A DNA stretch of 64,000 nt from Vicingus serpentipes. Its GTDB lineage: Bacteria; Bacteroidota; Bacteroidia; Flavobacteriales_E; Vicingaceae. Shown here piece by piece: positions 24,460 through 25,568 of this stretch. The stretch spans positions 434,001 to 498,000 of the forward strand of contig NZ_VOOS01000002.1 of assembly GCF_007993035.1 (NCBI RefSeq), read 5' to 3'. Position numbers and translations under genes: made by a program. Under the pieces are notes generated by a model, which was not told the DNA's origin, searched no databases, and was given only the letters and a program-made list of their open reading frames with translations. Positions within the stretch are counted from its first letter, which is position 1. Every line of letters begins with the position of its first letter.

Positions 24460-25317
24460 TTAAAATACCATTTTTTCAATTGGAACAATCAATATTCCTT
24501 CTGCTCCATTTAGCTTCAACTCATCAATCACCTCCCAAAATTTATCCTTATCAATAACTGAGTGCAAAGAACTCCACCCTTCTTCTGCCAAAGGTAAAAC
24601 TGTAGGGCTTTTTAAAACTGGCAAAATATTACTAATGGCTTCAATCTTATCATTTGGCGCATTTAACAAAATGTATTTTGATTTTCTCGCCCTTAACACA
24701 GACTGTATTCTAAATTGAAGCTTATTAAGAATTAGTTGATTTTCTTTTGAAATAACTGGAGATACTACCAAACAAGCTTCTGATTTTAAAATCACTTCTT
24801 TTTCTTCTAACCCATTTTTAAATAAAGTTGAACCAGAACTAACTAAATCACAAATCGCATCAGCTAAACCAATATTTGGAGCTATTTCTACTGATCCTGA
24901 TATTTCATGTAACTCAGCATTTACATTGTTTTCTTTTAAATACCTCATCAATGTATTAGGGTATGATGTTGCAATTTTTTTACCCTCAAGATTTTTTATA
25001 TTTGAATATAATACACCTTTAGGAGTTGCTATAGAAAGTCGGCATTTTGAAAACCCTAAATACTCAACCACATTTAATTTTGGATTTTTCTCTAAGATTG
25101 TATTTTCGCCTATTATAGCAACATCTACAACTCCATCAGCTAAATACTGAGGAATATCTGAATTTCTTAAAAATAAGACCTCTAATGGGAAGTTAGAAGC
25201 TGTAGCTTTTAATTGATCAATACCATTTTCAATTGATACACCACAGTCTTTTAAAAGCTGTATGGTATCTTCATTTAATCTTCCTGACTTTTGAATGGCA
25301 ATTTTTAGTTTACTCAT
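24460..25317 (-). CDS. hisG: ATP phosphoribosyltransferase (long form)
   Basis: First, rate-limiting enzyme of histidine biosynthesis, condensing ATP with PRPP and feedback-inhibited by histidine in long-form enzymes. 285 residues include the C-terminal ACT-like regulatory domain (~215-285, from LKSPTVLPL on), so no HisZ partner is needed. KIAIQKSGRLNEDTIQLL starts the catalytic domain; the PRPP loop is in GSVEIAPNIGLADAICDLVSSGST. First structural gene of the operon, 40 bp downstream of the attenuator terminator. Confidence 0.97.
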   Translation of the reverse strand: MSKLKIAIQKSGRLNEDTIQLLKDCGVSIENGIDQLKATASNFPLEVLFLRNSDIPQYLADGVVDVAIIGENTILEKNPKLNVVEYLGFSKCRLSIATPKGVLYSNIKNLEGKKIATSYPNTLMRYLKENNVNAELHEISGSVEIAPNIGLADAICDLVSSGSTLFKNGLEEKEVILKSEACLVVSPVISKENQLILNKLQFRIQSVLRARKSKYILLNAPNDKIEAISNILPVLKSPTVLPLAEEGWSSLHSVIDKDKFWEVIDELKLNGAEGILIVPIEKMVF

Positions 25318-25356
25318 TTTTTTATTTTTTTAAATCTGAGCAAACTTCAAGGAAAC

Positions 25357-25388
25357 AAAAAACCCGTCTGAATGCTCAGACGGGTTTT
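25357..25388 (-). terminator. hisL: his attenuator terminator
   Basis: Perfect 11-bp stem (25361-25371 with 25376-25386), loop of 4 nt, core CCCGTCTGA / TCAGACGGG. On the minus strand the stem is followed directly by six T (25357-25362 on the plus strand read as A). It lies between the His-rich leader peptide and hisG, in the position expected of an attenuator. Confidence 0.92.
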
Positions 25389-25440
25389 AGATATTTTTTA
25401 TTTAAAATTACATAATATCATTAACTCCTCGCCTGAGAGC
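25374..25440 (-). promoter_or_regulatory. Candidate antiterminator pairing in the his leader
   Basis: On the transcript, the 3' part of the leader ORF (25425-25440: GCUCUCAGGCGAGG) can pair with the left arm and loop of the terminator (25374-25384: CCCGUCUGAGC). I count 11 pairs (one G-U) with two small bulges. A ribosome stalled on the His codons (25445-25462) would leave this segment free and so prevent the terminator; a ribosome reaching the stop at 25421 would cover it. Confidence 0.65.
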
Positions 25441-25480
25441 AAGTATGAAAATGATGATGATGTAATTGAATAAATTTCAT
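25421..25480 (-). CDS. hisL: his operon leader peptide
   Basis: A 19-codon ORF, MKFIQLHHHHFHTCSQARS, with five His codons in six positions, ATG at 25480 and TAA at 25421-25423. It ends 35 bp before the attenuator stem and about 100 bp before hisG. His-tRNA shortage would stall the ribosome on the His run and favour the antiterminator. This is the classic design of proteobacterial his attenuators; here it is seen directly in the sequence upstream of a Bacteroidota his operon. Too short for normal gene finders. Confidence 0.9.
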   Translation of the reverse strand: MKFIQLHHHHFHTCSQARS

Positions 25481-25499
25481 TGTTATTGTTTTGTTGATG

Positions 25500-25507
25500 C
25501 AAATATA
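25500..25507 (-). promoter_or_regulatory. Probable -7 element of the his operon
   Basis: TATATTTG on the minus strand matches TAnnTTTG and would start transcription near 25494, about 14 nt before the leader ATG. The -33 element is poor: the nearest TTTG lies only 15 bp upstream, shorter than the usual 19. Confidence 0.45.
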
Positions 25508-25568
25508 TAAAATTATATTTCTCAAAAAAAATAATTTTATACTTATACAAAATTTAAGTTTAGAACTA

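Follow-up and report, generated by a model that had tools for sequence, protein, structure and literature searches.

A his attenuator of Flavobacteriales with a conserved third partner for its terminator arm and a predicted lock on the hisG start

Introduction

The closest described counterpart of the locus presented here is the gamma-proteobacterial his attenuator (RF00514), with which it has in common a leader peptide bearing a run of His codons, an antiterminator that is opposed to a terminator, and a position 5' of hisG. It differs from RF00514 in that the leader has no Shine-Dalgarno sequence, the terminator arm has a third partner (segment 5), and the hisG start is itself predicted to be paired. 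To our knowledge, neither a third terminator-arm partner nor a hisG start-codon lock belongs to the gamma-proteobacterial design, and we found no description of a third terminator-arm partner in amino-acid attenuators in the open-access literature searched. Beyond the Proteobacteria, His-run leader peptides accompanied by a terminator have been reported for Firmicutes hisS and hisZ, which concern another gene and another phylum and for which no third partner is described; until then, the authors of the 2010 survey that described these cases were aware of leader-peptide attenuation only in Proteobacteria and Actinobacteria (PMC2965389). A study of Flavobacterium psychrophilum, which belongs to the same phylum as our locus, noted "strong clues" for leader peptide attenuation at amino-acid biosynthesis operons, although the main text of that paper includes neither a his locus nor the anatomy of the leaders nor a segment 5 (PMC9723704).

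Joint control of termination and of access to a start codon is also known. In Bacillus subtilis tlrB (yxjB) and vmlR, ribosome stalling within a leader peptide relieves both termination and start sequestration (PMC6851288, PMC9226507). Leaked tlrB transcripts are silent, and no overlapping antiterminator was found there; both hairpins are blocked directly by the stalled ribosome. The signal for tlrB and vmlR is an antibiotic, whereas the putative lock of our locus would instead be coupled through a shared terminator arm. Similarly, the B. subtilis trp leader combines attenuation with a TRAP-controlled structure that sequesters the trpE start (PMC12288461), except that tryptophan is sensed there by a protein and a Shine-Dalgarno sequence is sequestered, while our locus employs a leader peptide. 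Double control of transcription and translation is thus already known from B. subtilis trpE and tlrB/vmlR, and our locus would be a shared-arm version of it.

Results

The locus lies within a 64,000-nucleotide stretch of the Vicingus serpentipes genome, and we refer to this entire analysed stretch as the window. On its minus strand, a promoter-like box, a leader ORF, a terminator and hisG follow one another in this order. The elements that frame the leader are these:

25500..25507, minus strand: -7 promoter-like box TATATTTG of the Bacteroidota TAnnTTTG type, recognized by sequence
25421..25480, minus strand: leader peptide ORF MKFIQLHHHHFHTCSQARS followed by a stop, 19 sense codons, without Shine-Dalgarno sequence, recognized by sequence and conservation
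25445..25462, minus strand: regulatory codons His7-His10 and His12, recognized by sequence
24460..25317, minus strand: hisG, ATP phosphoribosyltransferase, first gene of the operon (Pfam HisG and HisG_C)

The TATATTTG box is separated from the leader ATG by 19 nt, and TANNTTTG occurs no more than 60 nt 5' of the leader ATG at 81 of 106 loci, compared with 4.7 expected from shuffling. The original prediction, made from the letters of the window, had described a 19-codon His-rich leader ORF in front of a hisGDCBHAF(IE) operon, and both descriptions hold: five of six consecutive codons of the ORF at 25480-25421 encode His, and the ORFs of the operon extend downstream of the leader from 25317 to 18310, with Pfam HisG and HisG_C on the first gene. 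The leader peptides of relatives conform to the pattern M..(I/Q)LHHHHFH.C.QA... The remark accompanying the prediction that Shine-Dalgarno sites are rarely used agrees with our finding of an SD-like motif in 3/106 leaders. Bacteroidia ribosomes do not use Shine-Dalgarno pairing, and therefore ribosome loading on the leader must follow other rules. In ViennaRNA models at 37 C, which underlie all folding results given here, the leader fold reached z = -6.7 relative to shuffles, and an early-leader hairpin between the His-run strand and the region past the stop, a candidate pause or protector hairpin, is predicted in the window. On the minus strand, RF00514 His_leader was the Rfam family that the region matched best (36.5 bits, E 1.6e-4), short of its gathering score of 49, and no Rfam match in the leader attained the gathering score. 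For this reason a T-box or riboswitch was likewise considered and dropped; no T-box reached the gathering score anywhere in the window or was among the weak matches at 25250-25560.

The distribution of such leaders was determined at the level of the class, using a sample in which hisG was present in 175 of 396 genomes, 132 of them with enough upstream sequence. Short ORFs encoding 3 or more His within 8 codons were found 5' of hisG in 125 of these 132 Bacteroidia genomes, while the reverse strand gave a count of 7 and shuffled sequence one of 3.7. When the threshold was raised to 4 or more His within 8 codons, there were still 112 genomes versus 0 on the reverse strand and 0.3 in shuffled sequence. 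Given His leaders in 125/132 genomes against 3.7 when shuffled, the comparative evidence makes it nearly certain that the leader in the window is a ribosome-mediated his attenuator. The outcome named as refuting the prediction, close relatives lacking a His-rich ORF or terminator 5' of hisG, did not occur: of those that possess hisG, nearly all have the His run, the antiterminator and the terminator. Specifically, hisG is present in 15/46 genomes of the family to which the window belongs; among the family loci for which the leader region was covered (L002, L003 and L005-L014), each has a terminator and a leader rich in His 5' of hisG, and the terminator is still present at L004, which is cut by a contig end. 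Since hisG is found in just those 15/46 family genomes and is absent from G043-G045, the three other genomes of the same genus as the window, the his operon appears to have been lost or gained often in this family.

The terminator and its competing strand occupy the following positions:

25357..25388, minus strand: intrinsic terminator 3:4, AAAACCCGUCUGA-GCAU-UCAGACGGGUUUU plus U, with loop GCAU and six T; arms -20.0 kcal/mol
25430..25437, minus strand: segment 2, CUCAGGCG, the antiterminator strand within the leader ORF; 8 pairs with segment 3
25375..25382, minus strand: segment 3, CGUCUGAG, the shared strand and left arm of the terminator; pairs with segments 2, 4 and 5

A terminator stem of 11 bp followed by six T had been predicted, and the core at 25388-25357 indeed consists of 11 perfect pairs, or 13 counting the A-U ends. 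The 3:4 stem is paired in 99.8% of alignment cells. An alternative hairpin with the left arm of the terminator had been put forward as well, also with 11 pairs, but we found 8 contiguous pairs (one G-U) at -11.0 kcal/mol. Across 51 aligned leaders, the 2:3 pairing is kept in 98.5% of cells versus 19-53% for slid controls. The prediction looked to relatives for conserved His runs and compensatory changes, both of which occur: CUCAGGCG/CGUCUGAG changes in step to CUCAAGCG/CGUUUGAG, a swap of G-C to A-U that couples columns 79 and 133 and that represents a single event on the tree. The geometry of the leader was analyzed in the 92 Flavobacteriales-type loci that have a segment 5 and for which the leader had been located, with the ribosome footprint assumed to extend 13 nt past the A site. 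In 92/92 loci, segment 2 is free when stalling occurs at the third His and is covered when the ribosome has arrived at the stop codon, and in nearly all of the loci listed segment 2 begins 2-7 nt past this assumed footprint of the stalled ribosome.

Between the terminator and hisG, a further segment matches the terminator:

25334..25342, minus strand: segment 5, UGCUCAGAU, 16 nt before the hisG ATG; 9 pairs, -12.9 kcal/mol

Its complement is the left arm of the terminator plus the loop, GUCUGAGCA at 25381-25373, and the match in the window locus has p=0.010. Among 109 Flavobacteriales-type loci, which include F. johnsoniae (L220), F. psychrophilum (L183) and Kordia (L146), segment 5 scored p<=0.01 in 89 and p>0.05 in 13 (e.g. 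Sinomicrobium L145 and L152), while the same test applied to the hisG leaders of other Bacteroidia returned 1/56. Matched against its own downstream segment, the terminator core scored 22.9, as opposed to 16.7 with swapped partners, and 0/20,000 permutations were as high. In the 3:5 alignment, both sides have changed at 8/13 pairs, a number that 0/500 shuffles reach and that compares with 2-4 for slid partners. The loci are related, non-independent sequences, a kinship that is addressed in part by counting on the HisG tree, where 3:5 shows 13 double compensatory changes versus 0-2 for slid partners. Variants of the pairing include GAGCACA/UGUGCUC (L110), GUUUGAGACAAU/AUUGUUUCAAAC (L135), UUUGAACUAA/UUAGUUCAAA (L172) and GCUUGGCUUUCAAG/UUUGAAGGCCGGGC (L129), and in one branch of 16 sequences a change in the loop coincides with changes in segment 5 and in codon 3 of hisG. 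G-U pairs are common in 3:5, a frequency that points to pairing at the level of RNA. Chance or low complexity as the source of the match is ruled out by the shuffles, the partner swaps, the slid partners and the 56 control loci, and on these comparisons the 3:5 pairing is real with near-certainty. While the pairing itself is well supported, a function for segment 5 is something that we infer. Segment 5 was also considered as a general feature of Flavobacteriales attenuators, which was rejected for trpE: in ten trpE loci with WWW leaders, no segment 5 was found save for a weak match at L255 (p 0.02), and the starts were mostly open.

The segment overlaps a strand that is complementary to the beginning of hisG:

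25337..25345, minus strand: start-lock strand GUUUGCUCA, which shares bases with segment 5; -9.5 kcal/mol when paired with UGAGUAAAC
25308..25316, minus strand: segment 6, the hisG start region UGAGUAAAC, codons 1-4; pairs with 25345-25337

As predicted by folding, opening positions -3..+6 of hisG in the window would cost 8.5 kcal/mol, the highest value of 46 window genes (median 2.3). The predicted median cost of opening the start is 6.8 kcal/mol for hisG with a segment 5 versus 1.8 kcal/mol for hisG of other Bacteroidia, and the mean cost of 6.0 compares with 2.5 in shuffles of the same region and falls to 1.7 once segment 5 is blocked in the model. Start sequestration past the terminator, of the kind known for tlrB and trpE, is clear by the folding model in 67/92 loci; in about 70% of loci, as in the window, segment 5 also has a predicted pairing with the hisG start. 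About a quarter of the loci with a segment 5 keep 3:5 without clear start occlusion, such as L129, L146 and L200, and because these occlusion-free loci still keep 3:5, its conservation cannot serve start release solely. Pairing of segments 5 and 6 has fewer double events on the tree than 3:5, 6 versus 0-2 for slid partners; some of these events are shared with 3:5, and they are partly a consequence of the 3:5 events. At L182, L192 and L121, the simple match between segment 5 and the start has been lost, and the occlusion seems to be kept by sequences adjoining segment 5. The choice of the hisG Ser2 codon was dropped as evidence for a lock, as AGT is the commonest Ser2 codon in the few other genes available for comparison too.

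The three states of the shared strand differ in what they are predicted to do to the start, the modelled opening cost being 6.5 kcal/mol with 3:4, 5.8 with 2:3 and 1.6 with 3:5. By the same models, 2:3 and 3:5 would be isoenergetic (median difference 0.3 kcal/mol), while 3:4 would be more stable than 3:5 in 89/92 loci. Past the 2:3 duplex, a median of 5 loop-side bases are open to segment 5.

Discussion

We propose that this locus is a his attenuator with a second, translational check on the hisG start, a combined mechanism to which we assign a probability of roughly 0.55. When histidine is plentiful, the ribosome would reach the leader stop and cover segment 2, so that 3:4 forms and most transcription ends. 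When charged tRNA-His is scarce, the ribosome would stall on the His run and leave segment 2 free, 2:3 would form, and polymerase would continue. Segment 5 would emerge only after read-through. Following leaky read-through, segment 3 would be locked in 3:4 and could not be displaced, such that segment 5 would pair with the hisG start and the mRNA would be silent. Following genuine antitermination, segment 5 would enter via the free terminator loop and exchange places with segment 2 at about equal energy, a swap that would leave the hisG start open. Segment 5 would thus discriminate stalling from leakage, since it is able to take the place of segment 2 and unable to take that of segment 4. As 3:4 is the most stable pairing nearly everywhere, the model also needs 2:3 to be a kinetic trap from which segment 5 offers an escape before segment 4 does. 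The parts of this proposal differ in standing: the leader, the terminator and the 2:3 and 3:5 pairings are supported by sequence comparison, the occlusion of the hisG start and its release are predicted by folding, and we infer how the events are ordered, that the strands swap, and that HisG synthesis is affected. The full proofreading claim for the Flavobacteriales his attenuator, in which the hisG start would be opened only after antitermination by a stalled ribosome and leaked transcripts would go untranslated, seems to us to fall slightly short of even odds. The original prediction that this organism regulates its his operon in the same way as gamma-proteobacteria captures the stalling his attenuator but is incomplete, as the third arm partner and the predicted start lock come in addition.

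Several other explanations share part of this evidence. Segment 5 might take segment 3 away from segment 2 merely to stop the terminator from re-forming in full-length mRNA, which would prevent late termination, processing or decay, with the occlusion arising as a by-product of the resemblance between the loop and the hisG start. The retention of 3:5 where start occlusion is absent and the equal energies of 2:3 and 3:5 both suit this explanation; however, segment 5 is made well after the U-tract and so too late for an ordinary termination decision, the occlusion of the start is unusually strong compared with other genes, and L182, L192 and L121 seem to keep it despite having lost the simple match. 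We consider this hand-off in the service of mRNA stability unlikely, if worth keeping in mind. It is also conceivable that the locus is an ordinary his attenuator and nothing else, in which neither segment 5 nor the start pairing regulates anything and the resemblance to the arm is vestigial or fortuitous. Control could be achieved with the terminator, 2:3 and the His run, the trpE attenuators of the same genomes manage without such a segment, and a significant segment 5 is lacking from 13/109 Flavobacteriales-type loci. Co-variation is not expected of a relic, though: 3:5 has 13 compensatory events versus 0-2 for slid partners, 0/20,000 permutations score as high, and the control loci give 1/56, which leaves this explanation improbable.

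Complementarity to the loop plus one arm is furthermore the pattern of loop-started antisense pairing, raising the idea that the terminated leader RNA acts in trans, its exposed loop pairing with segment 5 of the full-length his mRNA to repress it. We judge this very improbable, because the target arm would be tied up in the terminator hairpin, which is more stable than 3:5 in 89/92 loci, and because the same complementarity works in cis with no need of a second molecule. Finally, seen as DNA, segments 3 and 5 constitute an inverted repeat, as would befit a DNA operator or a component of an internal promoter of hisG in place of an RNA element. We give this next to no credence: the spacing of the repeat varies, the G-U pairs common in 3:5 fit RNA and not DNA, and a TANNTTTG box lies between terminator and hisG in 0/95 loci (1.3 expected), for which reason an internal promoter in segment 5 was rejected.

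Should the combined mechanism hold, one stalled ribosome would control both transcription and translation via a single shared RNA strand, and start-region structure, which tunes initiation in F. johnsoniae (PMC6847099), would act at hisG as a regulated lock. The conserved third partner provides a concrete and easily mutated case in which one stall may set both termination and access to the start. The leaders also suggest that leader-peptide attenuation is near-universal 5' of hisG in Bacteroidia.

Some additional observations concern the leaders more broadly. Most leaders have a T-rich TTNTTT stretch after the terminator (25351-25362 in the window), which resembles the B. subtilis NusG pause motif; by analogy, a pause of the polymerase at this site is possible, which would give segment 5 time. 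A his leader of another design, lacking an intrinsic terminator, lies 5' of hisG at L041, L045, L066, L067, L072 and L074, where the peptide ends in HHFHHSS or similar and no Rfam match was obtained; the L066/L067/L074 group has a TCCTC..GAGGA element and then a conserved stretch around ACCCATCCGGTGACGCTGATGACAGGGATTCGGC. Yet another design is found in one family (L100, L106, L113, L118, L119, L128, L130 and L139), with a ..HHLHLHH.. leader, no strong terminator, a GTG or TTG start of hisG, and TATGTTTCTACGCGAAATA common to L118, L119 and L139; it is possibly under translational control. In the genome of the window, trpE (L253, G000:C5) has an attenuator-like leader, MGMTKNTNWWWFSLNSINVN, and a terminator with no third partner, and trpE leaders are similarly present at L245, L250, L251, L254 and L256. 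Lastly, leader peptides rich in Ile and Val, e.g. MMQISIIITSVIVVNVYSTYASGMV, precede a terminator 5' of ilvD at L225 and L232 in two Flavobacteriales-type genomes.
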